A stretch of DNA of 64,000 bases, taken from Rhynchonema sp. JSB1_4. Taxonomy: Eukaryota > Nematoda > Chromadorea > Monhysterida > Xyalidae. This document shows, one piece after another, positions 1,077 through 64,000 of this stretch (the first letter of the stretch is position 1; each line of letters opens with the position of its first letter). The notes beneath the pieces are model-generated. The model was given only the letters and a program-made list of their open reading frames with translations, did not search any database and was not told where the DNA came from. The stretch lies in contig JASAMV010000663.1 of assembly GCA_030248065.1 (NCBI GenBank), forward strand, positions 1 through 64,000. The letters run 5' to 3'. Both the position numbers and the translations under genes were made by a program.

Positions 1077-4000
1077 ACCATCAACGAGGGTCTGGTCACA
1101 CCCCTGGTGCGTCGCAAAGAGTTCATCGTTCGTCAGCAACAACGCATCGCCAGGGCACAAGCCGCTGTTAACCAGGCTTCTTCCGGAACGAGCCCCACCG
1201 TTGGGTCACCATTTGCTGGCAAGAGGTTAGTTGTTCTACCCAATAGGTAGTGGGCCAAAGGTTTGTGGTCATTAATATTATGAATTTTCGATCAGGTACT
1301 GGATGTTGGAGGACTTCAGGCAAAAGCGCACCTGCATATTTCAAAAATGCAGAAATGCGGGTATTTGGGATTCGTAGACTTTCTACACAGTGCTGCGGTG
1401 TGGTTAGCTGGCGGTTACAAGGACCTTTTCTTCCGATGGCCTTCCAACTTATCTCAAAAAGCTGACACTTGAACCTTTTTGCCCTCCGGCTTTTGGCCTT
1501 TGACGACCTTTTAGTTGTATACCAAAACGGAAAGAGAAAACGGCCAAATAATGGCGGACCCATCGGTCTTTTTATTCAGTGCAGCACAAGCAAGTTGAGT
1601 TGTTCCATAAAGTTTGCTAATTGACATTATTGGGCTCAAAAACATTTTTCACATCCAAAATTGTTATGAACAGGCAGACCGAACCCGAAGAAGTACGTCC
1701 AACCAGAAATACTGCTTGTCCTTGTAGCAATAATGTGCATTTTGCCTTTTTACACACGTGTGCTAAAACTCTTGCTTTTCTCCAAGCGAGTGCTAAAATA
1801 ATTGTCCGGTGCGCTTACATTTGAAAACACGTGCGTTGACAAGCACTAAACATTGCTGACTAAAGTTGTCGGCGTTTTAGAGCTGCGGCTTTGGCGTCAC
1901 GTTACAACCTGCCAGCCAATTCTGCTCGAAAATGTCTTCAAATGAGGTTTATGCGCGTGAGGTCAAAATCTTGTTGTCTAAATTTGAAATATTTGGGCCG
2001 TGCATATGAGCATTTTGAACTCAAATATCCCAAAGAACTCACTCGTGGCTGATTTTGGCCGGTGTTTCACGAAGCGCGGTGCTCAAAACTGGTTAAGTTA
2101 CCTACCGACATTTTCAAGTGAAAGTCTGAATGGAGCAGGATGGGTCAAAAATAGACTGCAGATTGTGGGGTCAGGTTTGCGCAGCTGCTTACACATGTCA
2201 TTTTGAGTATAAGTGATGGAGTACTCACGTCAACACGTGCTCGTATATTTGTTCACACCTGTGGTCGGATTTGGCTGCAATTCACAGCTGAACCATGCGC
2301 GCTACAGGTTTGTCCATCATCCATCATTTCATACCCAAAATTATTCTCTCTTCAGATTCGGTTCGGACCGACTTCCCACAATGAAGAAACAATCCACCCA
2401 AACTTCGCCGCCCGACAGCCCGGATAAGGAGCATGTGAAACATCATCCAGCTGGACCGGACAGCGGCGCCAAACCGAACACTGGTTTTCATCCACGTTCA
2501 GGCAGCTTGCACAACAACAACAATAATTGGTCGGCTGTGACTAATGAACTCAAATGCAGGCAGCAGAGGGTTGCAAAGGTGTGTTTGCTTGGCGGTCGGG
2601 ATTTAGCGCGTGTGCATCAAGATATTTTCCTGAAACATCAAGCTAAAAAATGATGTTTGTACTGTAAACATATTATTATTTTTATTCCAAGTATTTTTCT
2701 CGGCCTTTTTTCGCAAGCTAAATCGTGTAAGAGGATTATAAACCTGCGTTCGCCCCGATTCCCTGAGGGGTTCCTGCCAAAACAATAATATGCTACATAC
2801 TGCCTCCGTGTTGCAAATAATATTGCAAATCCATCCACATACATAAGTACATCTGTGATGACATCTTGGGGCGCTATAGTCATAAATTTTGACATTATTG
2901 TCTTTATACAAGAGCCAAAATTGAAATTTATGTGGTACCCAATGTAAAGAGGTTACCTTGTTCGCCCCACATTTGGGCCATAAATTTCCAGCAGCCCCAA
3001 TAAAGCAAAGCGAAGACGCAACAAGGGGCCCATAAAATACCATAAGGTGGACACCCACAATTGCTTTGCTCGTCAAATTTTATAAATTTTGGCCATGAAC
3101 CTGTCGCCTGGTAAGGCAAAATTTTATGTTGTTAGGTCCTGCTCATGTGTTTTTATTTTCCACCTATATTCCGTTCAAAACTGTGCCCAAGATGTTTTCT
3201 TATAGTATTAGTTGTATGGCAACACGCAAAAATGCGCGTCGTTACATTAGTAATAAATTGTTTTAGTTCAATCGATTTTGGTACCAACATTGGTCTAAAT
3301 GATTATTACGGTTTGACTGTTTTGCTACCGGCACGCAAATGCCAAAGTGTTGTGTAATATTTTACCAACGATGTTGAAATATCCAGATTCAGGAAGAGCA
3401 GTCTGTAACTTTCATTGATGAAAAATGACGGTTGATAAAAGTGATTCACGCCAAATACAGGTTTCGATTTCAGGTGCCTCCCACAATCAAAGCTCAGCCT
3501 CAACCACCCTCCAGCGACTACGCCCTGTTGTCTGACTTTGGCTCGGGTCTGCCGCAAGTCATCGACACAACCGTTGTCTCCAGGTATATTGCCTCGTATG
3601 TTTGCAACTATTGTAATCTTGTTTTGATCAATTTCGATGCATTTCTGATATTAATAATGTCACTAAGACATCCAACACTATTTCAGATACTACTCCAAAC
3701 AACACGGTCACCCTTGCGAATCAGGCAAAAACATGTTGAGTGGAAGTGGCAGCTTGAATCATCAAATTCCGGAGAATGGTGATACGCCGGTGGACAATGA
3801 CGATCAAATGAGTGTGGCAGGTATTACGTGTATATTGTTAGTATTCGTTTGCGCATTTGCTGACACCAGTGGTTCATAGCTTCATTAATTGGAGCTACAA
3901 TGTTCCAAATATGGATTGAAAAAAATGGCCATACGTGTCCATGGAATGGACCGCTCCCATTAAAATCGATTGCCAGTTTAATACTGGTCGATGACTTTTT

Positions 4001-7000
4001 GTTTTGCTCGCCCATTTATGTGTGACTTTTAGTGACGATGATGATCTGTGTTTGCCACCACGTGGTCTAATTTCGTCAAATTATTTCACAGGTACCGTGT
4101 TCAACGAGCCCTGGGACTCGGCCGTGTGGGAGAACCTGGTGGATTTGGCCAACTATGGTGATTGTATCCAAGAACCCATTCTTGAGCACTCGCATGTGAT
4201 GAAACGGATGTCGCACGTCCAGCTGACGCCACCTGGTTGGTTGGGTTGTATAGTAAATTTCCAGATTCTCTGCCGCACAGTAAAATACGCCCCATAGTTA
4301 ATGTCAAGTTATAAACCCGAACGCTAACCATGCGCGGTTCTGAAACATTGCGCGCAGCTGCCTGCCTGGCTGGCAAGCTGCGTGTGCGTTGGCTGTCTGA
4401 ATGTTTCACAAGTTGATTTTCGGGTTTAGAACCTGACATTAACTATGGGGCGTACTTTACTGTGCGGCAGCGAATTTGGAAATTTACTATACCATATAGT
4501 TTGTGAAGTAATACATATTGGTTAATATTAGAGGCAAAATGGTGGATGCTGGTTGCCATGAGGGCTCATGCAGAACCAACCTCCGATGCCCTTGATTGGC
4601 AGGTCCGAGCAGCCTTATCCCGTCGAGCGACAATGTCCACGACAGTCAATATGCCAACATGAGCACTTGTCCGACCGACAGCAACGGCAACAACACAATT
4701 GACAACAACTACGGTAGTACAACGAGCAAAAGTGCACTTCTGCCCCCCGAACTTGGTCAACGACAGATATTGGCCGACAACATATCCTTGGACAAATTCA
4801 GACGAGCCAGCCAGGATAATGAAACATCAGCTAGTCTGGATAGGGACAGGTTGCTTTGTTTTGGTGTGTTGTATTGCTGCACAGGTTTTTCAGCGTTGGA
4901 GTCCCGTTTATGCAACTCTTATCGTGGTCGTTGGTTTTTTGCTATGTTGAACACTGCACCGTGCATCCTGCAAAGTTGATTTACTCAGACAATGTTGAAA
5001 AAGCAGACAGAATTTTTCAAATTGCAGAAATTGGTCGCAAGCCACCGATGATCGCAGTATGACCAACTCCACAGCCCTACCCTCCATGTCGTGCAGTTTG
5101 TACGAAGAATCATCCCTGAATCAGCAAGGCGACTTGCAGGTTGACCCAGATCATGAAACATCATGTGCACCGTCGATCAGACAGAAACACAGCGCACAGA
5201 AGTGGGCCGCGCACAGGATACAGGAATACGTGAGAAAGTTAGTCGGCTGATGTTTCATTTTTCGGTTTTGAATTGTTCTGAATATTAGTTCCATGCGCAT
5301 AAGCGTAAGCAACTACAGGCATACCGCACCAATGCTGCGCACAGCACGAGAATTCCAAATAATTTCAAATCACAAAATAATGTTCTTGTTACTTATTCAG
5401 ATTATCCACCAACGAGTGCACGATATTCGGTCGCACCATACAACAGTTCATTCGATGCACGTTGGAGGCGTGTGACCACGATCCATACGTGCAAATGAGA
5501 AATGTATGTATCGGTGATGTTTCATTTGTTTAGTGCTCTAAATGATCGGTGGTTCCATTAGTTTGTCTCACCTGGATCGGATTATTACTGGCGTCTTCTG
5601 CTCTTGTTTAGGAAGCCGGCTCCGAAATTTCCAGCGCCGAATAATGAACCCGAGATGGAGCCATTTCGGTACCGACCTAGATTATTCGTTTTCAGGTGCG
5701 TCAGTTCATGAACGGCATCAAGAACTACTTGGTGAAACACGGCGAGGGCCAGCTGCACGAATTGATTGAAAGAGAACGAGCCAAGCTGAATGCGGAGGAA
5801 TTTCTCAACATAGACACGATTCTCGAGATTGTCATGCATGATGTTGTGTTGGGTTGGTATAAGTGTTTTCGGCGCATGGTTGTTGACGCGTTCGTTGTTT
5901 TCTTTTCTTTATTTTGGCGGAATCAAAATTTTAACAAATTTTTTACATATGCGTGCAATTAATCGTTGCAATGATAGGCGACTTGCCTACGTTATCATGC
6001 CCATCTGAACCTGAATGCGTTTGGGACAACAAAATGTTCCGTGAGCGGGACATAAAGCTTAGTGTGTTGCGCGAACGACGATAATTGTTGTGCAGTCATA
6101 GTGATGAAAAAGACAACAGACAAAAAATGATTAGCAATGTGCTTTAAACCTGGCGCAGGTTAATAGGAAAGGTCATGATCACCACTGCCGCATAGAAATC
6201 TAATTGACCGTGAAAAAGTCAACTAAAATAATCACTTGCCAAAATTTGCAGCTCCGGTCAAACCACATCTGTATCGTCTGCTTATTGACGAACACAGCAG
6301 GTCTGGCTCACTGAACTGCATTGCCAAATGTCAGGCACATCTCAGGACCCAGCCAATCGACCATCTTTGGCCGTTCAAAACTAGTCCAAAGGTTCGGCAC
6401 TGCTCTTAATTTTATTTTAGACGTTAGAATTTGTTGGTAGTTTAACACTTTGTGATCGATTGCGTTTGGAATAATTACACACACTTGCAGTGTAAATTTC
6501 GTCTTATGATCACCACACCACTGTTATAGTGACCTTCCGAGTTTGTTTCTCTGTCCGCATTTGAACACAAATTTACACTTGTGCGTAATTTTCACATTTG
6601 GGTGTGAAAAAGTCACACTAAAAGTGTGAATGTTTACAGAAAATGAGCGAACTCGAGCCGATCCGGCTGCAGTTGCGTCGTATGCAGCATCAGCACTCGC
6701 CGATCAAAAAGCTGGACCATTTGCTGCACGCTGTGCACTTGCTGACAATTGGCACATTGCCAACGAACGGGACTGTAGCTGGACGGGACAGCAGATCAAA
6801 GACGCGAAGGACGGACTTGCCGAAAGCCGATGGTAAATTTGGGTGTATATTACGACAATGAATAGTGTGGGGTGTTAAAATTAAAGGGCTCGGGACACAA
6901 CCGAAGGAAGGGCAGCAGAGCGCAGTGTTATACATCGTTGGAAAGCACTGTGACAGCATATGTCACGCACAAATGTTAAGCTCCTTAGATATTTGCTATC

Positions 7001-10661: not shown

Positions 10662-11414
10662 TGTGATGTTTCATCGAATTTGAGTATAGTTGGACGCTGA
10701 TGTTCTGAATCTGAATTCTTGATTTGTTTGGAAGGAAAGTCTGTCACAAGTGTATATTATATACAAACCTGTAAATAGCGCTCAAGAAATATAATCTCAA
10801 ATTTGTTTCTGTCTGGTTTCAGTTCGTTTTTTTTCATTTAAAACTTGCACAATAACTATGATTCTATTAATCTTTTGCTTTTGCGTTCATAATGAAATTA
10901 TGAGTATGCCTTTCCGAGAAATTACACTTTAGCTAATTTACTTACATTGGTGCTGCTTTGTTTTTGTTACTTTCTTTGCACAATTTTACACTGAAGTCTA
11001 CATTCATTTCAGAGTATTATTTTTGATTTTTATCACGAGTAAACTGAATATTTACCATCATAGATGGCTCGATTAAATCGCTCCGAAACTGAATAATAAA
11101 ATTAAACTGAGCTGAAATTATGGCTCCGCAATAGAGTCATGGCATATTTGGGCTTGGCACAGCATGGGGGTGACGCTGAACCAAACTGCATGCCTACTAT
11201 GTACATGGCATCTGTCAAACATGCAACCTGGCATACTGCTCATTGTTTCCAAGGCGATACGAAATGCTAAAGTCATAGTCGTAGGATTAGGACACTCACG
11301 CTCAGCATTATTGTTTGCCCATCACCGTATACTATTGCGGACCGGAAACATGAAAGGAATTGGCTTTCACTCTCCCTCAAGGAAACGGGCAGTTTAAAAT
11401 TTCAATTAAATTTT

Positions 11415-11770: not shown

Positions 11771-11837
11771 TTGTATGGGACGGAAACAAGAGCCAAAAGC
11801 AAAGCAATACCATGAACATTCTGGCAATGGTTTTGTC

Positions 11838-12817: not shown

Positions 12818-12996
12818 ACGACGAAACATTATTCGATAAACCAACCGCGGGCTAGCACGCGTGGCTCAATACTACCAATACTAACCTCCCTTCGAGTTGG
12901 AACGGTCGTCGATTGCCAGTCAGGGCCCGGAGTCATCTTCGGTCGGCCCGTATTGGAGCGAGGCCGCGGCAGGAGGATTTCGGGTGCACTTCGTCA

Positions 12997-15900
12997 ATGA
13001 TGCACCATGCACCAAGCTTGGATCAGGACGCTGAGCCAAGTTGCACTCTTTTCAAGGGACAGGACGCTGACCCAAACCATAGGAAACATATGGATCCCCC
13101 GGGATCGGTTGGCGAGTCCGCATTAGCAGATGAGCAGCCAAACCAAGATAAGGAATTTAGGGACGTGGACGCGGATCAATCTGCAACTGGGGTTGGGATT
13201 GAGGTCGCGGACAGCGATATGAGTAATATGCAGAACGGAAGCCGTCAGAAAGTACGCTTTGATTTACCCACGGCACCGTCCTCTATATGTTCAGATGATG
13301 ACGACTCGGGTAGCATCCGGTTGCTTCCTGATTCCGATGATTCTATGGACTATAAGAATACGTCTGATAGGTTGCGACAGCTGCTAAGCCAGTCGGAGGA
13401 ATCCTATTCATGGGCAGAGTTAGTGGAGCAACAACTCTCTAAACCCTCCGTAGTGGAGAATGAGGTGTGTGAAGATGGATACGAGGCAGGGGATGAAGCC
13501 CAGGTGGAGCCCGCCCAGGAGGGACAGATACGTACTGAAGGGATGGTTCATAGGGGACTAGTGGCCTTGCCCACGTTGAACGAAACAGTAGAGATGTCAG
13601 GATTGGATGAGATAGAACACGCTATGCAAAATAGGGACGGAAGCACGGACGAGGCGACTGCCATCGACCGTGGTGAGTCATTCATAGGCACGGATCAGCA
13701 GAACCAAAGAGGTTCCACACCAATTATGATTGGATATGATGTCGTGACTGACGATAAGATGAAGGCACACCCCTTGTGCAACTATGGGTCCGTGGGAGAG
13801 ACCGTAGGATTGTTGGCTGAAGCCGTCGCCATTCGACAGGATCTAGAATCCGGGTCGACCAGCGTCGAATTCATCAACGGCAAATTGGCTAAAGAGACAG
13901 GGGAACATTCGGCGAGCCCGGTGTTCGCTATTGAAGCAGAGGTACGCGATCCCTTCGGTGGGGTGCCTAAGGAACAGAGACACCAGCCTGTCCGGTCGAA
14001 TACGGCACCACCAGTGGTTGCGTCCTCGAATGATCCATGTGACAGACAGGAGGCATCTATGCCTTCGACGATTGAGGTTGCTGCGACGGCAGGCGCCAGT
14101 GAGGAAGCAAGGCTGCCTACCTCAGCCAAAGCCTCTAAGATAAGTAAGACACCTAAGCATGGTATGGATGATACCGCTGAAATGAATAGGGTTATTCATG
14201 ATAACAAGAGTGATGTTTCACTGCCCGAGGTGCGGTCGAATACCCGCCCGGTCTGTGATAATAACATGGGTAACGCGAATAGGAGCAATAAGAATAGTTC
14301 AGTTCCGAACCCCAAGAATGGTGAAACACCATCGGGCGGAACTGAAGAGATAAGAACGAATGAAAGAGAAAGTCGTGTCAGTAGCCCTAATCCGGATACT
14401 GCACGAAAGGAGGTGATAGCACCGCTCCGGGTGCTGAGCTCTGATGATTCTTCGTCATCAGGCCTGACGAGCCCGAGTAGATATCATGGTACGACAGGAT
14501 ATAAGATATGTACAAGTGATGTTTCACAAAAGATCACATTGGACAAGAATTATATGCTTCCGAAGTCGATAGTATGGGGAAGTACGGCCTCTTCCAAGGC
14601 GTACTCGTCGATTCGGTTTGAGTCCTTGACCGACGTCATGGTGCGTGGCATCAGGGATTCCGATTTCGTGCCTGAATTGAAAGGGAAAGCTAAGAAGAGG
14701 GCTGATTATGTGTGGAGGAAAGGGATTGATCCTCTATTGGGTATCCCGCGGAAGGAACTAGTACCTACAGGGGACGACGATGTGGAACTATGCTTGATGG
14801 CTAGGAACAGCGTGTCACTGGCTGACCTGACGTGTGCCAGACTCTATAAGGAAGGACATGAGCTTAGTGCCCATCCTGAGGTTATGAAACGAGCGCTTCG
14901 TGTGAACACGCTGGCGTATAGGTACCGATATAGGGTCCAGCTAAGTCAGGATAAGCCAGGTGTCTTCATTACCCCTGGGAAACTAGATCTGCCAGTGAGA
15001 TTAAGGAACAAACGTCGACTTACGGGTTTCGATCCATCGTATCTCGATGGTATCGATACCAGAAGGCCATATGAAGTAGACCCGGTCATGATTGCGAAAT
15101 ACGATCCTCGTCGGTCGACGCATGGGTGCGTCAACGGCCTGGAATGGGGTAAAGTGAAGGTTTATTGGGTTAAAAGTAAAGCAATAAACAAATTAAGCAA
15201 GTCATGGAAGGAAGGTCATAAGAAAGGAGGTTCTCAGATCCCAAATCCTGATCTGAGTGGAGGTCCAGACCATATGCTAGTTTTAGAGTTAGAGCCCTGC
15301 AATGTGCCCGGTAGTGTTTGTGGGTATTCTGCATACTTCAGTTATATGCACGGCGAGTTCTTATTCGATATGAACTCGACCGAAGTAGGTATCCGAAGGG
15401 AAGTGCAGGCCTGATTGCGCGAGTCAAGCCATTGTATTTACGCCCCGTTCGCCCCTTGCGAACTCAGGGAGTTCCGAGTGGGAGCGGAATACGAAGCCGA
15501 TATGGTGGAGAGGGATGCCGCTTATATGTGTGATGTAACGATCAATTCCGCTGAGGAATGGACGGACTCAGAGGACGTATGGCATGTCCCAGCCAAAGAG
15601 GCAGGAGGTATTCCGAGACCGACTAGGAAACTAAAGCGCAAACAACAGGCGTGGAGAACGTATCGCATAGCCAAAGTTTATGATTCGTCTGGTTATGACG
15701 CCACCTCATTCGGTGGGAGAGAGACGGGCCAGCGCACGCGTCAACGCTGCATGATTAATACGGAAGCTATGTGCTCTGAAGATGGGACGGCGGAACGGGC
15801 CGGAGCGTATACCAAAAGTGGCGAACCGCTAGCCGCTAGGAAGTTAGGTGGGAACGACGGTAGCCAGGTTGTTCTTCAATCTGACTCCCCTAGTGACCAA

Positions 15901-16964: not shown

Positions 16965-19900
16965 ATGGCTCGACATGCGAACAGAACAACGCAACAGCTG
17001 ATCTTCCTCTTGATTCTTCTTATTGGCGTTTATGGTTGGTTGAAAATTAGTTTCGTCCCATAGTGACTTTTGTGATAGCAAAGTTGGTGGATCAGTCGGG
17101 CCTGTTACGGTCTTATGCTGCTGACGTGACTTTTATACAAGTAAAATGAAGCTGAAACATATCAGCGAAGCGTTCCTTAAATCAGTTTTCAGTGGTCTAC
17201 CGACGAAAGTACTCGGACCAGTTGGAACCAAGCGAAATCAGTGCCGAAACCTCACAGGCTCCTAGTACATCAAACTCTACAGGCTCGCGAAAATCTGCTG
17301 CTTCACAAAACGCCAGCGCGGACAATCCAACCGGTTTCATAACAATAAACACGATTGAAAACGGGAGGCTGGGAAACCACATGTTCATGTATGCGGCCTT
17401 GTTGGGTGAGTGAGACAGAGACTTCAGCCTAAATTGGCCTGTAGGTGCATATGCGTGGCCTTCGGCATTCATTGATGTGGGTTTTTACATTGGAACCACA
17501 CACCGTGTGATGTTTCAATAATATCCATCGTAAATTACCAAAAACCTTTCAGGCATCGCACAAAAAACCGGGAAGCGAGCGTATCTGCATTCGAAATTGC
17601 GTGTAACCTACGTGTTCCCGTACTTGACCGTTCGTCAAAACCAACAGATTCAGCCGTTGGATAGAAAACAGGTGACGCAAAAATTTGGAGGCGTCTCTCA
17701 AATGGGTAATCACCTTAATCACTTTCATCAGCGGTTTATATCTTTCAAGTATACTGTAAGGTCAATTCCGGTCCGGCGGGCAAGTTCAACTTGGCAATTA
17801 CGCAACTGGGTGATGGGAACTTCATATTAAACGGATTCTTTCAAAGCTGGAAGTACTTTCACGATATTCGCGATCAAATGAAGTTGGAATTTCGGTGAGA
17901 ATTATAAACTTTTAATGGACTTTGAGATTTTTTTGTCGCGATTTGTATTTCAACCGCTTCATCTGGTGAGTGTTTGTTCTCAGATTCAGCGCAGCAACAG
18001 AACAAAACTGTCTGAGAACCTTGGAGCAAGCCAGCGGTTGTGTATCAATTGGTGTGCATTTGAGACGAGGTGCGGGGGGGAGGGGTGGATGCTGTTACTG
18101 TTCTTTTATTTGTTGTAATTTATCTGTCCAGCGAATCGCATTCTTGCAATATATGAATGGACTGATAAGTAGATAGATGTCGGCTGGTCAGTATTCAGTT
18201 ACAAGCTCGACAAAGTCACGTGACCAACACTGGTCAGACATGATTAATAAGGTTAATATGCTGAAAACCAGCAATTGCGGTTTTGTCCCTATTTTCTTCC
18301 CGATTGCGCTTGAATACTATTTTGCACTTCAGTTTCGAAAAAATTAATATATCCATTTTTTAGGCGATATGACGATGAAGAACGACTATGAACCAGCCAG
18401 TGCTGAGTACTTTGCCGAAGCAGTCAAATGGTTCAGGGACAAGTGAGGAAAGACATTTAGACTCTTCAATTTTTTTCCACGATTGTGTATGAGAATTTAC
18501 TACATGAAAAATAAAACAGGGAGGGTGGTGCAGAACAGTTGATGGATTTTTTTAGACTTTTGAATATATCACTTTGACAAAGGAAAAACCCAATCCTGTG
18601 TACCGTATGTCGACTGCTTGCCTTAAAGAAATGAAAAAATTTATCGTAAGGCCCAACTATACTGCGTTCTCTCACGAACATGAAACAAATTTTCCCACGC
18701 TTATTGGTTCTCGCGCGCTCGCCAGCCAATCAACGCGCGAGAATTTGTTTCGTGTTGCGTGAGAGAACGAAGTATAAGTTGGGCCTAGGGCGCCCTTAGT
18801 CATATATCATAGTCACAAACAGTCATAGTGGAAAATGGAAAATGAAAATGAAGAGAATAATCGACGTCCAAGTTTTCCATTTCCATTTTCCAAAATGACT
18901 AAGGGCATATTGGAAAATGGAAAATGGAAATGAAACTGCAGCAGTCATGCTTTGACATGGGACAAAACATTTCTGTTCCGCTCAGTTCTCGGCCGCTGAT
19001 TGGTCAGATTTTAGACAGAAAATATTTTGTTTCATTTCCATTTTCCATTTTCCAATGTGCCCTTAGTCATACTGGAAAATGGAAATGGAAAACTTGGACA
19101 TACAGTAGAATATTTTTCATTTCCATTTTCCACTATGACTAAGGGCGCCCTAAGTCTGAAAACAGCTCGTCTGCAACAGGGCAAGTATTTGGCATTTCAA
19201 AAATGTTTTGTGCACTCGTCATCATATTAATGACGTGCTGGTTTCAACGTCTGCGATGATTTTTGGTTCCCACAAACCTGTGAAGCAGACCAGGGTTGGG
19301 CAAAAAAAAATTTTTTTTAATTTTCAAAAAAAAAGGTTTTTGAAAAAATTTTCTTTTAAAGAAATTTTTCTTTAAATTTGTTCGGGGGAACAAAATGTTC
19401 TAAAACGTCCAAAAATGGCCTTTATGGGGGTCATTTTTTTGTCATTTTTTCTCAAGGGTCGAAAAGTTTTCTTCACAAAATCACCTTTAGGGCATGTATT
19501 TGGTACCTAAGATACCCAAATGATGTTATTATACCTTCCCGTGATGCATGGGACACAGTGTGCATGTACCTACGTGGACCCGGAGTTTTCCACTTAAAGC
19601 CCCCCCGAATAGAGCCCTCGGGGACTCTAAGTGGAAAATTTTCCACTTAAAGCCCCCGGAGGCTCTAATTGGATTTATTTTTTTACGGACCATTGATTTT
19701 ACATCGAAAAGTAAACTTGCCAAAATAGTTCAAACTAGTGTAAGAATGACCAAAATACCGCACTTTTCTGTTGTTTTACCAACGTTTTGCCACGTTTAGA
19801 TGAAGATCCTATCAATCAGGTTGAAATATGGTAACAGAATGTCGCTGGGCTAAAGTGTCTCTACCGACAACGATGAAAACACCCAGTTTTTCGCTTAAAG

Positions 19901-26900: not shown

Positions 26901-29900
26901 CCTGTGAGTGTGCGCACTATGTCTAGATGCCTCAAAACAACGATTATGGCACCCAATACACCCATGGTAGGGTTAGGTGATGTCAACAGTAGCAATTTTT
27001 ATGCAAAAAATAGCACTTTTAGAGCAAAAAAATAGAGAAATTTTCGAATTTTGAAATAATAAAAAAAATTTTTTTTAACTTTTGGGACGAATTTTTTTTA
27101 AATCTTTTTTAATAAAAAAATTTTTTTTAAAACCACTGCTGGTCACCACTTGTGCGTCTATTTGTGTGTCACATCACGATGGATGTTTCCAAGCCGAAGT
27201 TCTTATTCGCCGTTCTGGTCTATTCCTGCACCTTTGCGTAAACATGCGTGAAGGGGCACTGTAGGCTGAACGTGCCGGAATGCGGAATTATTGGTACACA
27301 TACGGAAAAATATGATCCATGACCATGTTGCGGAACGCAAAATCCAAAATGCGTAAATATTTCCGGATTCCGCTTTCCAAAAACCAGCGTAAACATCTTT
27401 CCGCATGTCAGGTGCTGCGGTGTCCACAATCCTCGGTCTGAGCCGTGTCCCTTCCGTCATTCTGAGTGCAGCAGTGGCGATCGCGTACACCTTCATCGGC
27501 GGACTGTATTCGGTGGCATTCACTGATGTCATTCAATTGATCTGTATTGCGTTCGGATTGGTAAGAGGGCGCGTAGCTTCGCAAAAAAAAACGTAAATTT
27601 GGGACAGCGTGTGACAACGTGAATAAAGCTCGAAGTCGTTCTTTGAGCCCTAACATGTGACCAAGCAAACGCTTAAATCACCAGTTTACTTCAAACTGTA
27701 CTAAAGTCACTGCATTTTACGTTTTCTTATTTTCCGACGAATAATTGGATAAATCACGGCCGTCAGAGTTCTGCCATTGAAATCGTAATCACACCAGCAC
27801 AGCCTGGGTTGTGGAGCAGTTGTGCAGCGTGTTTTTTGCCAACCCACCGCATCCTTTTTTATCGCAGACGGGCGGTGCACCAGGTAATCGTCAGTGGAAT
27901 GCCCCAATGGCTGATACAAACCATTCCCCAGGTGTTGGCCATTCCCTTCGCGTGGTCGCATCCCGATGCAGACCCGAATCGACCGCTCGACAATTTGTTG
28001 GGCACAATCGAGTACCCGGGCCAATACATCGATGGGTTCCTGTTGCTCATATTTGGTGGACTGCCGTGGCAGGTGGGCATAGTCTTCATGCGTGTCTGTG
28101 TTTGTGGTGACTTAAGGCGATTTTGGTTTCCCGATTGGGTCGCTAAAATGGCGGTGGACTTATGCATGTTGTAATGAAATGGTGGCCTTTATTTCTGTCA
28201 TGCAATCGCTGATGATTTTCTTGACAATTGGCGTTTATTAAACAAATGTTTATCTGATGCTGATGTTTCACGCCCAGGTGTATTTCCAACGCGTGTTGTC
28301 GGTTCGCTCGTCGCGCAACGCACAGATTCTGTCGTTTGCTGGTGAGTCACTCATTACGCACATGTAGCTGATCGGGAGCGGGGATTGTTGCTCAAATTTT
28401 GAAACATCTTCAACTTGAAAAAAGTCACAGCACGTGACCTGTGAAGATCCGCTCACCAGATGCAACACTCATACGTACAGTAGCTCTTGTCATCGAGAGA
28501 CGCTGAAATATAAAAACAAGTGCCGTTTATGGGTGTGCCCGTCAATTTTTTTATCGAGCATTACGCCAGTCTGATTCAGACCAGCATAAAGTGGTCAATC
28601 AGGCGCAGGAACGGTGAACAACTTTGTCGAGATATTCGTGCTTCCAAAAATACGTAAGGTCCAAACAAAATTTATGCGTTTACTTTGCTATTGTCGTTGC
28701 CCTATACATAGTTTTTGCCGTCAAAACCAGTGTTCGAACGGGATTCATTTTTAATCCCGGGATCGGGATTGGGATCAAGAAAGTGTCGGGATCGGGATCG
28801 GGATCCCGGTTTTGAAAACCCGGGATCCCGGGATCGGGATCGGGATCGGGATCCCGTTCGAACACTGGTCAAAACCGATACAACATCCGTGTCATTAACC
28901 TTCCTCCTTAGCCGCTCCCCCTTGTAGGTGGTGTCGGCTGCCTGCTCATGGCCATTCCCCCGTTGCTCATCGGTGTTTCCGCTCTTCGTCTGCCCGATGA
29001 CAGTCCACTGCGTGCAGCCATTGTCAACGACTCCACCATGTTGCTGCCGTTGGTTGTCAAACACATGACACCACCGGTTGTCGGGTGCGTTGGTGGACCT
29101 TCATTTGTTTCCTGGTAATTTGGGTACCACCTAATCTACATGTACCCACATTACCTATTCTGCCTGCCGGATTCGCACGACACCGAATTGTTTGCGTACC
29201 AAGACCCAGTAGTTGTGTACTCCCGCATTTACCAGCAATTCTCAGGAATGAAGTGCGCTGTACCACCGGGGCAGTCCACGTTTTTTGAGATTGTTGCGCC
29301 TTGAGTCTTGCTCCAAACGATGTTCTTGAATCTCTGTTTTGTGGGCATGTCAGAACATGAACTGGACCCAGCCGAGATCAGGCTCTAAGTGAAGTCTAAG
29401 TCTAAGCTCTAAGTCACAGAATGAGCTCGAATAAAACTGCCTGATGTACATATGTCCCTTCCTTTGACTCCTGTAACTTACATATATGTATGTAACTATT
29501 CATGATAACCGGGAGCGCATGCACATTCCAAATTCCTTTGCGAACAAAAGGTTGCTTTTTTCGACTGGGATACTAACTTAATGGTTATGCTGCGACTCCA
29601 CCGGTACTGAAAAATCATACACATTCGTTACACGCACGTCCACCGTTCTACAAGGCGACTGAGCAGTGTTCTGCCAGTGTGAACACTACACGATCCTGGA
29701 TAAAAGGCCATAACCACAACACAAAAGCCATAACAACCTACAAGTTATGTACCACTACAGCGTGACCCAAAAGTAGCATATGTAGCTTTCGTCGATTGCA
29801 GTTACATCGCGTTAGGTGCAGTGGCGGCCGCAGTGATGTCATCCAGCGACAGCTCGATTCTGTCAGCGAGCAGCATGTTCGCGCACAACATATTCAGAAA

Positions 29901-38285: not shown

Positions 38286-40095
<1,810 letters not shown>

Positions 40096-40563
40096 CGTCT
40101 GTGAAACCATCCGTTTGCACGGATAACAGGCAGTTGAGTTTACAGCAATCGTAGTGGTTGCATTTATGTGTTTTGTCTTTTAAGAGATGTATTGAACCCC
40201 AAGCTGATACGCACTGCCATAACATTGTGAACTCTGGATCTTGAAAATCTATATTCTATATCTCGCACCGCCCTAAGCGCCTAAAACACTTTTCGTTACG
40301 AAGACGCCGTCGGCTCCCGTCGAGCTGAGCCCGGTCATTTGCAACAGTTTATCAGTTTTGACAATCTTTTACTGTTTTGCTGGTCGGAATTTGTAAGAAA
40401 TAAGAAGGAAGGTGGGGGAACAGGCAAATTGCCAAGCCTAAGTCATTATAAAACGGCCTGTTATCAACCCAACAATCATTCCTGAAATTTTGCATCGCCG
40501 AATATTTCCTTCAACTTCCGTCTTCAGTTTCAACATCTGATCCCAAGTGCTCCAACGATCATC

Positions 40564-42007
40564 ATGACAACAGCGGCCAAAGTCAAACCACCGAAAGTGG
40601 TGAAAGCGAGGGAGAACAGCAAGAAAGGTTCGCAATTATTATAATTGTCTTCGAAAAATTGGGCAATCGCACGAACCGATCTCAGCTGACGAAGACCAGA
40701 AAGATGACACGAAGGTTCAGAAACGTGCGCGACAGGAGAAGGAGAAACGCAGCGGCGCCGCCAAAAAACCGCGTGGTCAAGCGAAACAGAGAGTTGCTGC
40801 GGTGAGTTGCGCTCACTTTTAGCGCGCAATCAAATGACGAAATCAACTTATAGGCTTCGTTGATGTTTCAGACGCGTGAAGCGAGCGTGACATCGACTGC
40901 CGCCGAAGTGTCTGCTGCGACGGCCGTCGTTTCCGAACCGATTGTGCCGCCGGCGGTCGCAGTCCAGCCACCAGCAGCCAGTGCACAGCGAGTCAGCAAA
41001 GGTAACCCTTTTGCGGACTCGCTTCAATCGATGATTGCAACTGACACTTGAAACAATGTCGAATTTCATTGTCACAATTGTCGCTTCAGCGCCGCAACGG
41101 GAAGACGGACGCGCCAAGTGGAAATCGAACGAAAAGAAGACCCAACCGAAAGAGCAGGCGCCTGCCGAGCGCAATGGCTCCGATGGTGGCACTGGGGGTG
41201 AGCGGAGAATCTGGTCGATCTTTGTCTTTATTGGTTCTCACAGCTCAAAACAAGAAAATCATTTTTCAGCGAGTGACGTTGAAACGGCTGAACCACCTGC
41301 GGCTGAAAACGCACCAGAATCGCAGCCCAAACCGAATGCGAAGAAAGGCTTGTTCCTTAATCGTTTCTTTGGGCCTCGTTTTTGTCGCCTCAACCGACCT
41401 CAATATCCTGGTGCATGTTCCAGCAGCAGCACTGGCCAAGTCGACACCGAGATCGAAGGGCAAGAAATCGCTTCAACCAGATGGCCAAGTTGTGAGTTCG
41501 CGACGACCCGTAAGTGCCACTGGCGGTTAGCGTGGTGGGAATCAACAAGTTCGGGTTTTATCTCGCAAAAGTCATTGGTGCTCATAAAAATTTATATTTG
41601 GAGTGAGTGATGCTTACTTCACCCAAACAACCGATCACAGTCGATCGCAGAGCTTGAAGTTCAATATTTCGGCCGTTCAGTCAAATTCAGTGATTGCTTT
41701 CAGACAAGAAGTGTGCGCGATGTGGTTTGCCGAAAGCACCGCCAGCCAAAACGACGCTGAAACATCGTGGCGGTCGTGGCGATCAACGCGGTGCCCTATT
41801 GTTTTTTTTTCGTGTAACAAAACTGCACAATATATTTGAAAGTGGTTGATAAGAAGTCCTAATCTTACAGCCTCGCGTAAATCGACCCGATCGCCGGCCA
41901 AGAAAGCACCGAGTGTGAAGAAGCAGGGAGCTGGTCAGAAACGCACCAGGGATGATCGCAAAACACAACAAGCTCGTCAGATCGACAAACGAACTGCGAA
42001 GGCTTGA
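40564..42007 (+). CDS. Lys/Ala/Pro-rich basic protein, probably nuclear, function unknown
   Basis: Seven exons keep phase: 40564-40627, 40686-40801, 40872-41001, 41090-41197, 41270-41509, 41704-41790 and 41871-42007 (TGA), 293 residues. Exon 5 could lose an internal in-frame intron (41354-41415). The start MTTAAKVKPPKVVKARENSK and the end KRTRDDRKTQQARQIDKRTA are highly basic. The middle is Ala/Val/Pro-rich, with acidic patches and one CxxC (KKCARCGLPKAPPAK). Composition resembles linker-histone tails or other disordered chromatin proteins, but no winged-helix globular domain is present, so histone H1 is not claimed. The third exon's acceptor is the AG directly after TGATGTTTCA. AATAAA at 42181 would serve its 3' end. 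Confidence 0.65.
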
Positions 42008-42269: not shown

Positions 42270-43075
42270 GGCCGTCGAAACCCCCGAAAAAAACCCCGAA
42301 ACGGAAAACCCCGAAAATAAAACCCCGAAAATGAAAAACCCCGAAAACGAAAAACCCCGAAAAAAGCCCGAAAAATAAAAAATGTCAGGGATGAAAAAAA
42401 ATTCTTGTTAGAGGTGGGTATTCATGTCGCTCGTAAACCACGAGTGAAACATCACCCCTACACTTGATAAATTGGCTTCGGATCAGACTTGAACCTAGAC
42501 TTGGGCTTAGGCTTGTTCATAGGCTTAGGCTTAGGCTACCAGCCAGGAAGACATGTCCATATGAAGGAAACATCCACAAATGTACAGCTGCGCAGGCTTT
42601 CTTTCAGGGTTAGGCTTAGGCTTAGGCTGCCAGCCAGGAAGACATGTCCATTTGAAGAAAACTTCCACAAAACCTTAACTGCTCAGGCTTTCCTTCAGGG
42701 TTAGGCTTAGGCTGCCAGCCAGGAAGACCTGGCCACATGAAGGCAACATCCACAAAAGTTTAACGGAATAGGCCTTCATTCAGGGTTAGGCTTAGCCTTA
42801 GGCTGCCAGCCAGGAAGACATGAACAAAGGAGAATTACCTAACTTGTGCCCGAACTGTACCAGTGCCCATTTTTTGGTGCACGAACGACATGAATACCCT
42901 TCTCTAACCAAAAGAATTGTTTTCCACACATTTTATATTTTTCGGGGTTTTTCGTTTTCGGGGTTTTATTTTCGGGGTTTTTCGTTTTCGGGGTTTTATT
43001 TTCGGGGTTTTTATTTTTCGGGGTTTTTTTTTCGGCGTTTTTTTTCGGGGTTTTTTTTTCGGGGTTTTCGACCCC
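42270..43075. repeat. Inverted (CCCCGAAAA)n arrays enclosing a minisatellite
   Basis: Left array of ccccgaaa units (about 42278-42372) and right array of ttttcgggg units (about 42950-43070) are inverted copies. The outer edges gtcgaaaccccc / ggggttttcgac also match. No 8-bp target duplication found. It resembles the microsatellite-armed palindromes elsewhere in the window. Confidence 0.75.
42500..42825. repeat. Minisatellite, four units of about 85-90 bp
   Basis: Each unit has ggcttaggctgccagccagg, then aagacatgtccat..gaag, a cttccacaaa-like block and caggctttccttcagggtta. Units differ by substitutions and small indels. Confidence 0.85.
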
Positions 43076-57913: not shown

Positions 57914-60900
57914 ATGGCAACACATACGCACGGCCTTCCGTACGCCAGTAAGCACTTTTCAAAGTTTAAAATTTACCTGATTGTGAAACATCAGCCAGCC
58001 TGACCACTTGCAGGTTCGCCAAGCAGTATGGGTTCTCCCTATGGCTCACCGCCGGGACCATATTGGGACAGTGCCCAGTCAAGCATGTTGTCACCTTACA
58101 GCAACAATGGCCATATACAGGTTGCATGCCTGCGTGTTTTACGATGCCGGAGAATCCCGACAAAAGCCCCCCTAGTTGATAATGATTTTTTTAGCGTGCA
58201 AAACTCAAGTAACAACAGCCCGGGAGCTCTAGTTTCGAACTTCTGTAGTAATGTACTTTTTCATGCAGTTGTGCACAGAAAGACAAAAAAATTGTGAGTA
58301 CGACTTAGCCAGGAGAGGACCTACTTGGAATCCTCCGTTAGTATGTCTCGGTTTCGGTTGCCCGTTTCGATCTGATGTTGCCAGGTCACAGTCAGTGTGT
58401 GAGTGCATCATGATGGGATCAGATGGCCACAAGCGAGCCGAGAAACAAGTCGAGATGATGCCTGATCAATGCTTGATAGTGCTCGAATCTGACATAATGT
58501 TTCATCTTTTTTGGATTTTCAGTCACCGCACCTTGAATATCAAGGCTACCGACCGCCATTAGCCGGCGACGATCTGCAACTGCAGTACGCACGCGCCGGT
58601 GGTGACTATGTGTATTACACGGGTCAGTTTGGGTTCGGTGGCCCAGTGATGGTATCGGTCACGTTTGGCTCAGTGTGCTCAACATGCCCAGCCGCGCCGC
58701 AGAAATAATGTGGATTGGGACCGAAAACTTCTTTTTTATTATCAATCTTTATCATTTTTTTCAGGTTTTTGACATGGGTAACTTAGGATTCACACACAAA
58801 ATACAGTACAAAATCGGCATTCTGCGTCCTTTGGGTCAATTAAAGGGCTCGGGACACAACCGAAGGAAGGGCAGCAGAGCGCAGTGTTATACATCGTTGG
58901 AAAGCACTGTGATAGCACATGTCACGCACAAATGTTAAGCTCCTTAGAGATTCGCTATCTCTTGGTGGAGCGACTTTTCATTCCAGAAAAAAGTGAATTT
59001 TTTCACAACTTGAAACGACCGGTACAGAAACTACAAATGAGTTGAAAGTCGAGTAACGCTTGCATAGGATTACAACGGCTTCTGGATAACTTATCATAGA
59101 ACTTCAGTCGCTCAAAGCATTGCTTCACTCGGTGAGGGTGCGAAATGTTCCAAAAAATCGGCCGCATTTTTTCCAAACACAAGTTTGTTTCTAAATGTTG
59201 AGGCCGCGCTTTGTGTTGCAGAAATGAAAATGCAATAGAAAAATAGAGCATTTTCAAAAGTACCAGAAAATAAGGTTTGTAAATTTTAAAACACTTAGAT
59301 AGCGGCGTGACAGGCCGAAAAAGACCTAAAAATTGCCACTAAACTGCATAGTTGCATTCATTGACGGAAATGTGATGTAATTAAGCCATGTATTGCATTG
59401 CATTGGAAACGAGAAAGTCAGATAAACGCACAGTCCAACAATCTAGACGAGTTTCAAGACTTCAAACCCCATGGTCCGGCTGCTGCAGCCATGCCAGCCT
59501 GAATAAGATATTTGGCTATAAGTCGTTGCTGTTAAGAACTATTGCATATTTAATAGCACCAAACGATGTAGCTCTGAATTAGCTATCGAATGATGTATGA
59601 CATGCCCATACTATCTCTTACTATGGACAAGAAACGGTCAAAATTCCGAAATCGCACACGGTGACGTGACGGTTCATTCCAGAATCGTCAAAAAAGCAAT
59701 TTTTTAACCTCTGCCCTTAAGCGTAAGAATTTATTGGGGCTTGTTATATATCATTCGAAAGCTACTCCCGAGATACATTGTTTGGTGCTGTCACATTTAC
59801 AGTAGCTGTTAACAATAAGCATTTATAGCTGAATATCATATTCGGGTTAGTATGGCTGCCCCGAGAGATCTGTAGACCTTGGGGTCTCCGGACCTTGATA
59901 GGTTGTTAAACCAGACGTTTCTCTCATTTTTTTGTTTCGAATCCGATACAATCTGTGGCCTTTATGTGTCACAATTCTGGCGATGAATGTAACCACCTAA
60001 TTTAGCGGCAATTTAATGGATTTTTAGGCCTGTCACGGAGTCAGCCATAAGTTAAAAAATTTAAAAACCTTCTTTTCTGGTACTTTCGACGATGCTCTAT
60101 TTCCCCATTGCATTCTTATTTCCGCAGCGCTAAGCGTGGCCTCAAAATTTAGGGACAAACTTGTGTTGTCGAAAAATAAGGCCGATTTTTGGAACGTTTC
60201 GCACCCTCACCGTGTGAAGCAATACTTTGAGCGACTGAAATTGTGATGGTAAGCTATTCGGAAGCTGTTGTAATCCTATCCATGTGTTACTTGACCTTCA
60301 ACTCATTTGGGGTTTCTGCACCGGTCGTTCCAATTTGTGCAAAAATTCACTTTTTTCTGGAACGAAAAGTCGCTCTACCAAGAGATAGCGAATCTCCAAG
60401 GGGCTTAAAATTTGTGCGTGACATAGGCTGTCGGAATGCTTTCCAACGGTGTGTAACAATATGTCCTGCTACCCTTCCTTCGGTTATGTCCCGAGCCCTT
60501 TAAAGGTGCCACAACGATAGCTGTTGGAGTGAAAAACACGTATTCTCAAAAACACGTCGAATAATACTAAAGTAACGCAACTTGGGTCGACGAAAAAGTA
60601 TGAATAAACCGATCGTATATCAAAACGGACATCTCATCGCTACGCGCCATTCTGTGTTGAAACATCACCCGGCTGGTCACTGTATGGCGGAGGACGCTCC
60701 TGCTCAACTTCGGCAGATGCGCTTTCATCCTCTTCATAGGGCGGTGGTGGGCCCAACAAGGGCTCGGCTGATTCGGCCTGGAGATTGAATAGTTCGCAGA
60801 ATTTTCCCGCGCGTTGTAGCATAACGCTTATCATAATATACAGATGTAAGTATAGCACCTTGCTTGCGGTACATCACAATCAGGACCGAGAAGCTCGTTA

Positions 60901-63900
60901 GAAAGACACCAACCGCCCAGGGGTGGTGAGCTCGTACGTGTGGTATAGTAAATTTCTAAATTCGCTGCCTCATCCATTTTTACAAACGCGGGGAAACTCC
61001 CGTTCGAAGTCGAGACAAGCAATAAAGTCATGCAGCTGGCTCGTGTGCGTTTCGAACGTTTCAGTCACACACAAGCTGGGTGTATCAGCTGCGTGGCTTG
61101 TTGACTGTGTGTTGAGCTTATGCCTCGACTTCGAACGGGAGTTTCCCCTGCGTCTGTAAAAATGCATGAGGCAACGAAATTAGCAATTTACTATAATAAC
61201 ACCAACGCAATGAGCAAGTCAATAGAGTCGGTGCTCTTCTCAGAGGCCAAGGCCTAAAGCACGTGCAAGGCCAGGCAAGGGGTGATATTTTCGAAAGGGC
61301 GCAAGGCCGCTCTCTGACAAAAGCAAAAAGTTCACAACACACTTTTTGCTTTTTGGTTTTTGCTTTTGTCAGAGAGCAAAAGCAAAAAGTTGACTTTTTG
61401 CTTTTTGCTTTTGTCAGAGAGCAAAAAAACAAAAAGCAAAAAGTTGTGCAGCGCGCACAAGCAGCAAATATTAGCGTGTTCCAGACCTGTGTAATTTTTG
61501 ATTTTCGGGTTTGTGCAGCCTGGTTTTGGGCGTAAAAAGTCATGATGACTTTTTGCTTTTTTTTCAAGTTTTTGCTTTTTGCTTTTGCTCTCTGACGAAA
61601 GCAAAAAGCAAAAAGCAAAAAGTCAACTTTTTGCTTTTGCTCTCTGACAAAAGCAAAAAGCAAAAAGCAAAAAGTGTGTGGTAAACTTTTTGCTTTTTGC
61701 TTTTTGCTTTTGTCAGAGAGCGGCCCAAAGGTCAGTTGGGTGTACAGGTCGGTGGAAAGCTCGGTCGACAGCTCAGTGTGATGGACCTCGGTGCAAACTT
61801 GAAACATTTCACGTTAATAACAGGCAATGTTTCACGTTTACACCGAGCTATGTACGCCGACCGAGCTTTCGACCGAACTTTACACCCAACTGACCTTTAC
61901 ACCGTTTCGAAAATTCCACCCAAGGCCTAAAGCACGTGCTATGTTTATACAGAGGACACAATACTGCAAATTTACACATTAACATCTGCATTTGCGCTGT
62001 ATGGCGGTGGTGGATCCAAAGTACGGTCGTCCAAACCAGCTCGTCTTCGGTGTACACGTGTTGGGTCGAACCGTTCTGGGTGCTCATCTAGGGCACCTCG
62101 AATGATTTAAGTGTAGTTTTCAGAACACATTTATTCCAGGTTGTTCGCACATTTGGGCTGTTTAAGAGAGCTTACAGTCAATAATCCATTCCAAATATTC
62201 AATTTCATCGGGATCTTCTGCATCCAGCAACGACACACTTGCGATGTAGTCGTTGATTCTGTCCAGCTGAGCTTGATTTGTTATTGTGTGTAAACGTCCT
62301 GCAACATTGACAGTGGTTGTACGTGTGCATACGTAGAATCCCAATGACTTTTTAGAAAAGTCAATTCGGACTCCTTCCTGTTCACTAACTCATGCGTGGC
62401 GAGCAGGGTTGGATTAAAAAATTTTTTGTCACCGAACTTTTTTTAAATAAAACTTTTTAAAAAATCACTTTTTTTAATGCGGGCCCCCCAAAAATTGGTT
62501 TCTTGAGGAATGAAATTGCTGAAATCATGTTAGTTAGGTATGTTTTGAGGAACGCAAAAGAGAACTTTTCCACTGACTTACACGTTTACGTCTATCACCA
62601 TTTGGTCATGACTTCGAGAACCTCGAAGGTAACTCTGTGGGTATATATGACAGAGGGAAAACCAACCTTCTGTTTGTGAATTTTGGGGATAAATTTTAAG
62701 TGAGCACCATGCTCATTTTGTGTCACAAAAGTAGCAAATGACTAATCCGCGACCACTGCAAACAGGCGAGCAACGTGCAGTCCGTCGATAGCTTACGACA
62801 CGCTCAATAACTGTACAGTATATGATATGGGGTGTCCTATATTATACATGCAGCGGTTGTTGGGATGTCTGGGAACTGCATGAGTCCATCACAACACCAT
62901 TTCAAACTGAAATATAAGCGCCGCAGGAAATTTTTCGAGAATTATGAGCAATAAAACACATGAAAACATGCCCTTGTACCCTTAAAAAAAGTCAGAAAAT
63001 AACGAAAAAATAATAAAAAAGTGGACTTATTTCTTAAATTTTAAAATAAAAAAAGTGGCCAACTTTTCTAAAAAAATTTAATTTTACTAAAGAATTTTTA
63101 CTTTTTTTTAATCCAACCCTGGTGGCGATTCACACGCAGACCCGCACGTCTCCCAGACGCGTCTGATTTGTTCTAGGCTCAGTTCCAGCTGTTCTCGGCC
63201 GCAATTCCTCATCGTTGTTAAACCGCCTCCGGCAAGCACCGTCATCCGTTGATTGCTGGCCACAAACAGCACTATTGACAACAGCATGACTTTGGGTGCA
63301 CACATTCTGGGACGCTCGATGATTTCTTGTGGTTGTATTTGTAAAATGGAATGTGCTGGCTCGAAGCGTTTTAAAAAAATTGTTTCAGAAAAACGCCCAG
63401 ACGGCGTCGGTGAACGACATGCAAACGGCGCCGTCATGACAATTACCACTCTTTTATGCACCATCGCCACATGATGTTTCAGACACGCACAGTCAAGTGT
63501 GCCTGATCTGCAGCGACCGAGCCACCGGCCGGCACTACGGCGCGGTGTCGTGCGACGGATGCAAGGGCTTCTTCAGACGATCGATCAGAAAGGAACGAGA
63601 ATACAAGTGCAGATTCAATGATCAATGCGTGATCGATAGAGGTGTGTGAATATTGATTGATGTGATTGAATTGACTGAGTATAACTGATTTCTGTCATTG
63701 TCTTCAGACCATCGTAATTCGTGTCGCGCGTGTCGCTATCGCAAATGTGTCGAAGCCGGAATGAAATCTGAATGTAAGATCAATGATGGATTCTGTATGG
63801 ATTGATTGATTCATTGTGAAATATGATTTCCAGTTGTTCAATACGAACGCGATCGCACGTACGTGAACGACCGACCCAGTGGTCAGGCTGCGAACCAAAA

Positions 63901-64000
63901 TGAAACATCAGCCGGACAAAATAATCAACCAACTGATCGAGTTGCGAACAACTCAGCAAAAGTTGTTGAATCAGTGAATCAGAATTTGAATGCGCTGACG
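57914..64000 (+). CDS. HNF4-like nuclear receptor, N-terminal part (cut by window end)
   Basis: Ligand-regulated transcription factor of the NR2A/HNF4-like type. Exons in phase: 57914-57947, 58014-58120, 58523-58622, 63483-63641, 63708-63773 and 63834 to beyond 64000. The first three encode a Ser/Pro/Gly/Tyr-rich A/B region starting [18 protein letters not shown]. The next two encode the DNA-binding domain: first zinc module [15 protein letters not shown] with P-box [11 protein letters not shown], second module [10 protein letters not shown]...[15 protein letters not shown]. All eight zinc cysteines are present. A Gln/Asn-rich hinge follows. The ligand-binding domain is outside the window. 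The 4.9-kb intron 58623-63482 contains a complete gene on the other strand and five repeats. Exon 4's acceptor AG directly follows TGATGTTTC. Confidence 0.9.
58844..60499. mobile_element. TTAA-flanked long-TIR foldback element, copy 2
   Basis: Second copy of 6885-8539, same orientation, flanked by TTAA (58840-58843, 60500-60503). It lies in the large receptor intron. Both copies look full length. Confidence 0.9.
60640..63305 (-). CDS. Small type I membrane protein with PPxY tail, nested in the nuclear receptor intron
   Basis: Minus-strand gene. Exon 1 starts at 63305 and encodes a likely signal peptide ([10 protein letters not shown] core) and a Cys-containing segment; its 3' limit (about 63130-63180) is unresolved next to a hAT-like insertion. 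Exon 2 is 62377-62176 (acceptor position inferred), ending phase 1 after EYLEWIID. Exon 60930-60842 enters in phase 1 and encodes one membrane helix ([20 protein letters not shown]). Exon 60777-60640 encodes an acidic tail with PPPPY and PPPY, ending DVSTQNGA and TAG. PPxY motifs bind WW domains, commonly of Nedd4-type ubiquitin ligases. Another exon (62087-61972), also entered in phase 1, would instead end [15 protein letters not shown] without a membrane helix. Family not recognised. The last two introns are short or repeat-filled. Confidence 0.6.
60946..61193. mobile_element. MITE family 2, copy 3
   Basis: Palindrome with ends tagtaaatttc / gcaatttacta, flanked by TA (60944-60945, 61194-61195). 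The core differs from copies 1 and 2 (gggaaactcccgttcgaagt and complement). It lies 15 bp from the acceptor of the minus-strand exon starting at 60930. Confidence 0.82.
61280..61921. mobile_element. MITE family 1, copy 4, split by a nested palindrome
   Basis: Ends gggtgatattttcgaaa / tttcgaaaattccaccc, TSD AAG (61277-61279, 61922-61924). The 18-mer aaggcctaaagcacgtgc also occurs on both sides. The left arm is broken by the insertion at 61305-61725. Confidence 0.85.
61305..61725. mobile_element. Microsatellite-armed palindrome (GCAAAAA arrays) nested in MITE family 1
   Basis: Ends ggccgctctctgacaaaagc / gcttttgtcagagagcggcc with 3-bp flanks CAA (61302-61304, 61726-61728). Arms are repeated aaaagcaaaaagc units and partial inverted repeats of the same. 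Confidence 0.85.
62404..63121. mobile_element. hAT-like element CAGGGTTGGATT...AATCCAACCCTG, copy 2
   Basis: Flanks GTGGCGAG (62396-62403) and GTGGCGAT (63122-63129), seven of eight equal. Interior matches 56035-56686, including ttttgaggaacgcaaaagag and aatataagcgccgcagg. It separates exons 1 and 2 of the nested minus-strand gene. Confidence 0.85.

Follow-up and report, generated by a model that had tools for sequence, protein, structure and literature searches.

The 64,000-nucleotide (nt) stretch of DNA analyzed here (positions 1 to 64,000 of contig JASAMV010000663.1 from the xyalid nematode Rhynchonema sp. JSB1_4; in the following, the window) carries many exact copies of a 10-bp motif that reads TGATGTTTCA or TGAAACATCA depending on the strand. 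Matches to a weight matrix at a fixed place upstream of small nuclear RNA (snRNA) genes lead us to conclude that this decamer element is very likely the proximal sequence element that this genome has before its U1, U2, U5 and U6 genes. In animals, the proximal sequence element is bound by SNAPc, and the reading that we favor, if tentatively and at slightly less than even odds, is that the dispersed copies of the decamer represent a SNAPc-type element put to use at tens of thousands of places, where it would most likely start short RNAs that are linked to PIWI. The computed parts of this reading are (i) the excess of the decamer, (ii) its match to the snRNA element, (iii) the preference for the GTTTC form, (iv) the constraint on most of the core in a 264-kb sample, and (v) the presence of a PIWI-clade gene.

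The first-pass annotation described the decamer as strongly over-represented, and this is borne out both in the window, which holds 23 exact copies of TGAAACATCA compared to a mean of 0.37 and a maximum of 2 in 100 dinucleotide shuffles, and in the whole assembly (203.9 Mb in 5,747 contigs), which holds 37,556 copies of TGATGTTTCA on both strands (18,829 + 18,727). The genome-wide count that had been proposed as a check was run against the decamer read backward, a control word with 345 copies (172 + 173). All 22 positions listed previously are exact on one or the other strand, and a 23rd copy at 2631 had been overlooked. Similarly, the GC-extended 12-mer TGAAACATCAGC, which had been noted as a recurrent continuation of the motif, has 8,661 copies in the genome (4,320 + 4,341) compared to 16 for its reversed control. 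The suggestion that the decamer is a genome-wide iterated DNA site in either strand orientation is also upheld. In a 264-kb sample consisting of the window and 20 stretches of 10 kb picked by contig number (one of which adjoins the window), 58 decamer copies were found and 16 of the 21 stretches contain at least one, more than for any other among the 60 commonest 10-mers. The organization is, therefore, scattered over the genome rather than confined to a few clusters, yet it is locally clustered: among the 58 sites, 17 adjacent pairs lie <500 bp apart compared to 5.8 expected, a number that was reached in 0 of 5,000 simulations. The density in the window, one copy per 2.8 kb, is about two-fold higher than in the genome, with one copy per 5.4 kb. 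Judged by the titles and the starts of the abstracts of some of the matches, no paper retrieved with the decamer on either strand is visibly on the motif, and one that holds it, PMC10326622, concerns a fragment of the Caenorhabditis elegans nlp-17 promoter. Within the window itself, no Rfam family matched.

The weight matrix was built from 52 dispersed sites only and was scanned over the 150 bp upstream of 31 snRNA genes at every position and on both strands. In 28 of the 31 genes the best match is in place and on the sense strand, 34-38 nt upstream of U1, U2 and U5 and 46 nt upstream of U6. The gene set comprised all 10 U1 and all 8 U5 matches; left out were four of the 9 U6 matches (L034-L037) and one of the 9 U2 matches (L046), all of them weak. 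The three failures are L033, L050 and L054, of which L050 and L054 are U1 copies without the motif at the usual place; L056, L045 and L038 are low-scoring among the 28. When the 31 promoters were grouped by ungapped comparison of their distal flanks, 20 of 22 groups had the match in place (nominal p ~1e-26). This connection to the snRNA promoters, the central result of the analysis, had not been drawn in the first-pass annotation. Two of the 10 U1 promoters contain the exact TGATGTTTCA and five contain TTATGTTTCAC. Examples of the words found are GAGCCTGATGTTTCACC and GAGCTTGATGTTTCAGC upstream of U1, GGCTTATGTTTCACG upstream of both U1 and U5, GGCTGGCTGATGTGACAG upstream of U2, CAGCTGATGTTACAC upstream of U5 and GCGCTGATGCTACAGG upstream of U6. 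Many of the snRNA promoters of the RNA polymerase II (Pol II) type (loci L038-L064) have a common second block of the GAATGACTACCC or GATAGACTACCC type ~20-30 nt upstream of the RNA; in the U6 promoters its place is taken by a TATA-like TTGATAAAAGG or TAGATAAAAGG.

In the aligned sites, information spans from about CTGGC on the left of the core through the C on its right, and the site read on the opposite strand is ~17 bp long, (R)GCTGGCTGATGTTTCAC. Within 110 bp, no other positions were locked to the motif except for single weak columns (first set, 68 sites). In the 264-kb sample with 53 exact sites, one-mismatch sites at the last seven decamer positions number 29 compared to 23.5 expected by composition. 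By our estimate, drift without function would add ~40 near-misses at these positions; the neutral expectation, which puts the near-misses at each position at about a ninth of the number of exact sites, is a steady-state estimate of our own and not a computed output. Positions 8 and 10 tolerate more change (6 vs 2.4 and 6 vs 3.3), and the first three positions have 12, 12 and 12 one-mismatch sites compared to 3.3, 4.0 and 5.5 expected (36 vs 12.8). The small number of mutated neighbors at most core positions points to constraint rather than to the decay of a repeat, and it fits a core that is selectively kept, most clearly at TGTT and C. Near-misses would likewise be absent after a very young burst of copies, a possibility that the excess at positions 1-3 argues against. 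The U5-type word TGATGTTACA has 1,549 copies in the genome compared to 477 for its control, indicating that this position is open to change; by our estimate, the number is about what drift alone gives there. The dispersed copies are mainly of the GTTTC form, and the GTTAC form of most U5 genes is little spread.

The same data bear on the idea that mobile elements left the copies behind or carry them along, which we regard as very unlikely. Some copies are indeed found in such elements. A fold-back family of miniature inverted-repeat transposable elements (MITEs; loci L065-L068, ~185-748 in L065), which has 179-bp inverted arms beginning near AAGAAAGAAAAATGCCCC and a middle part in either orientation, carries the 12-mer ~88 bp inside each arm and accounts for 8 of 100 listed 12-mer places. 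Other MITEs are centered on TGAAACATT, as the first-pass annotation had it, with inverted pairs 27 bp apart at 735/762, 21713/21740, 38072/38099 and 61800/61827 of the window, and 5 of the 58 sampled copies resemble another copy. Thus, a minority of copies ride on repeats. However, the flanks are mostly unrelated: 53 of the 58 sampled copies are left once similar neighbors are removed, in agreement, for most sampled copies, with the earlier statement that the motif is not one repeat family, and 145 of 156 are left in a larger set. Moreover, the copies are rarer in repeated DNA than random positions (9% vs 17%), and most core positions lack the near-miss words that copies in decay would leave behind. 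Given the unrelated flanks and the few near-misses, a decaying repeat was set aside for most sampled copies, and the fold-back MITE family explains few of them.

For the dispersed copies, we infer SNAPc binding, transcription and loading of the products onto PIWI in the following scheme. SNAPc, which presumably binds the decamer-type element before the U1, U2, U5 and U6 genes, would also be recruited at dispersed sites, where ~37,500 exact copies of the GTTTC, or Ruby-like, form lie without the remainder of an snRNA promoter; it would initiate short autonomous transcripts at these sites, and some or many of these transcripts may feed the encoded PIWI protein, as at the dispersed PIWI-interacting RNA (piRNA) loci of other nematodes. 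The Ruby motif is the upstream motif of type I piRNAs, for which PMC7884074 gives the C. elegans core as NNGTTTCA. In C. elegans, a core CTGTTTCA or ATGTTTCA, the latter being a natural variant, lies 35-42 nt before the 21U RNA with an A/T-rich spacer between the two (PMC3597512). Beltran and others (PMC6436959) trace the Ruby motif back to the SNAPc motif of snRNA genes and report that the piRNA loci of some nematodes are dispersed in active genes. The dispersed sites described here have a ATGTTTCA core that conforms to the Ruby core NNGTTTCA.

This genome also encodes the protein that the scheme calls for. Among 54 exons with matches to the Piwi domain, four were compared: one (L088) is of the PIWI clade, with 59 bits to Drosophila Piwi compared to 24 bits to argonaute-2, and the other three are of the AGO clade. 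Counting the locus of this PIWI-clade exon, three PIWI-like loci (C1663, C3368 and C4595) share one exon layout and are perhaps recent duplicates or haplotypes. The Pfam family Piwi_N gave no match, which is uninformative given that it gave none in control genomes either. In the portions of the two papers at hand, PIWI outside clade V is reported only in plectids (PMC6436959) and not in clades I to IV (PMC4323106). Taken with the GTTTC form of the snRNA element, this distribution would point to a plectid or some other early-branching lineage.

Several observations weigh against the proposed scheme. The scores of the matrix on single promoters are modest and reach p < 0.05 relative to random 150-bp stretches in 15 of the 31 genes, so that the weight of the match rests on its placement. 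A cruder grouping of the promoters by gapped alignment and single linkage, which put 27 of the 31 into one group and was replaced by the ungapped distal-flank comparison, gave 4 groups with 2 in place (p 0.002). G is favored before ATGTTTCA at the dispersed copies, and T is found in 5 of the 7 U1 promoters with that core. The remaining observations come from 145 distinct sites, i.e. 156 minus 11 similar ones, with sites near locus ends uncounted. This set omits the upstream pieces of snRNA genes and the MITE loci (L047-L069) and includes the 3-kb snRNA loci L029-L046; of the 100 listed 12-mer places, 8 were already loci, 8 belong to the MITE family and 2 to L069, and 80 of the other 82 were retrieved. 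Just one of the 145 sites has a second-block word (GACTAC, GACTAG or ATGACT) within the first 26 nt. YRNT starting at +33 to +39 is present in 59 of them compared to 54-73 in nine other 7-nt windows, a T preference at the expected start is absent, and there is no A/T-rich spacer or AT step up to +72, with an AT fraction of 0.505-0.574 over nine 8-nt bins. Convincing partner words were not found within 76 bp downstream of the dispersed sites. There is a small rise in AT at +9 to +16 (0.57, and 0.61 in the 46 GCTGATGTTTCAC sites) and a weak YR excess at +35 to +38 (169 vs ~154 expected from other positions), which is the top of 56 windows.

Based on the negative YRNT, T and AT tests, strict 21U-RNA promoters were rejected, and because the defining start feature is lacking we do not class the dispersed sites as Ruby-type piRNA loci. 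By our estimate, perhaps at most about one in ten sites could have a strict YRNT-coupled start. The dispersed sites may work like Ruby-type loci with a looser start. It is also possible, though doubtful, that the ~37,000 constrained sites depend on SNAPc and form a novel class across the genome, distinct from the 21U-RNA promoters known so far. They would act instead as starts of short transcripts without a fixed initiator or as a DNA-bound mark, and might represent a state that gave rise to Ruby-type piRNA loci or one into which such loci have drifted.

The main rival to the scheme, which we consider rather unlikely, is that the sites are bound by SNAPc or a relative and are not promoters, serving as dispersed binding sites, for example as marks for spacing, chromatin or germline licensing. 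Such marks would be in keeping with the likeness to the snRNA element, the constraint and the lack of an initiator, spacer or partner within ~76 bp downstream, and the homotypic clusters (the 17 close pairs) point in the same direction. Yet we know of no precedent for them, and none was apparent in an incomplete survey of the literature by title and abstract start. A further candidate is another DNA-binding protein, of the forkhead or multi-finger type, whose word coincides with the GTTTC form of the snRNA element. PMC3597512 cites forkhead proteins that bind a CTGTTTCA probe in vitro. The G favored before ATGTTTCA where most U1 promoters have T, as well as the limited spread of the GTTAC form, would also agree with a separate protein. 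What makes this candidate improbable is that the motif, including its left-hand part and its right-hand C, aligns with the snRNA element at a constant position across four snRNA families and that a forkhead site would be shorter.

The first-pass annotation also held that the copies hug exons, and it considered a splicing element. Neither proposal was supported by comparison with random positions and neighboring bases. Of the 52 motif sites outside repeats, 47 lie in a stop-to-stop open reading frame (ORF) of at least 60 codons, compared to 88% of 6,000 random positions likewise outside repeats, and the longest covering ORF has a median of 97.5 codons for motifs and 100 codons for random positions (p = 0.52). 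By a crude codon score (1,116 training codons), 66% of 53 sites exceed the random median (p = 0.004), a small shift in favor of the earlier proposal. Exon hugging was set aside as unsupported on the basis of the covering-ORF lengths and the smallness of this shift. An element acting at the RNA level, i.e. a splice acceptor, an exonic enhancer or a small-RNA target, has in its favor that TTTCA with a following G looks like a nematode acceptor and that the site at 63472 lies directly before the coding stretch of a nuclear receptor. Nevertheless, the base after TTTCA is preferentially C rather than G (68 vs 21 of 145), the motif agrees with the coding strand in 6 of the 15 most coding-like sites, and there is no association with ORFs, making an RNA-level role extremely improbable; a splicing or RNA element was set aside for want of a strand or neighboring-base signal. 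In removing this false lead, the analysis indicates that the decamer behaves as neither an exon code nor a splicing code. The SL1 RNA was not found genome-wide by an exact 22-mer or by its Rfam model, a weak negative given that the model is silent in control genomes too.

All copies in the window are exact matches, and the strand given is the one that reads TGATGTTTCA, i.e. the promoter-element orientation. Copies of the motif proper are located on the plus strand at 5515..5524, 10664..10673, 17508..17517, 33920..33929 and 40861..40870 and on the minus strand at 2436..2445, 2631..2640 (the overlooked copy), 5154..5163, 42445..42454 and 60658..60667. The GC extension is found on the plus strand at 5248..5257 (GGCTGATGTTTCA) and 28261..28270 and on the minus strand at 4820..4829, 34357..34366, 35012..35021, 38291..38300 and 63901..63910; the copies at 34357 and 35012 have a duplicated flank in common. 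Longer continuations are found on the minus strand at 35217..35226 (long extension, GGCTGGCTGATGTTTCA) and 57984..57993 (full extension, GGCTGGCTGATGTTTCAC). The plus-strand copy at 33695..33704 is the first of five in ~1.5 kb. Two plus-strand copies, 14211..14220 and 14517..14526, lie within an 852-codon ORF at 12856-15411, and both read DVS in the same frame; this ORF has no Pfam match and no relatives at E <= 0.001. The last plus-strand copy, 63472..63481, is in the open frame 63440-63646 directly before the zinc-finger coding stretch; this frame is a nuclear-receptor DNA-binding exon with HNF4-alpha as its closest PDB relative, which marks the genome as that of an animal. The repeated stretch L018 contains five motif copies in near-identical context with A or G after TGAAACATCA.

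Other features were also noted. A large inverted repeat with 605-bp arms that are 82% complementary lies at 6881-8543 of the window, with a related second copy 52 kb apart at 58840-60503. Arrays of a CGGCCCGGCCCGG unit occupy 43848-45150 and are also present in other stretches of the genome, and ~500 bp of pure CA/TG repeat lie at ~39560-40100. A cadherin-like ORF has no relatives at E <= 0.001 in a protein search. The N-terminal domain of nematode cuticle collagens has 57 matches in the genome, which identify it as a nematode genome.

The snRNA element and the kinship of the Ruby motif to it are known already; what is unusual here is the scale and the absent start signal. In the view set out in PMC6436959, the piRNA promoters of nematodes originated from snRNA promoters, and this genome, with PIWI but no usual start signal, lets that origin be tested directly. 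In addition, tens of thousands of snRNA elements that are seemingly under constraint raise the question of which other roles the snRNA promoter factor has.

Among known systems, the snRNA proximal sequence element (PSE/PSEA) resembles the dispersed motif in that the matching sequence stands at a fixed place before the U1, U2, U5 and U6 genes of this very genome, whereas the dispersed copies are mainly of the GTTTC form and lack the Pol II second block in all but one of 145 sites. Bacterial DNA-uptake sequences are alike in being a short exact word in huge excess on both strands with unrelated flanks; they differ in that the word described here is anchored at snRNA genes. The Ruby motif of type I piRNA loci (CTGTTTCA or ATGTTTCA in C. 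elegans, with relatives in Pristionchus and Plectus) shares with the dispersed sites the common core NGTTTCA, the kinship to the snRNA element, the very large number of copies, a PIWI encoded in the genome and the scattering that is seen in the dispersed (P-type) species. In contrast to Ruby loci, the 145 sites lack a YRNT start at 35-42 nt, an A/T-rich spacer and an AT step after the start, TGATGTTTCA is strongly fixed with a GGCTGGC left arm, and at least two copies lie in a long coding-like ORF. A further parallel is provided by the bipartite motif of Plectus sambesii and P. murrayi, for which PMC6436959 describes nearly identical piRNA and snRNA motifs with GTTTC in the 3' half. The Plectus system is also alike in having PIWI outside clade V, and the motifs are alike by their description. 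In terms of scale, 3,082 motif sites are given for P. murrayi in that paper compared to the 37,556 copies of the core word in the genome described here.

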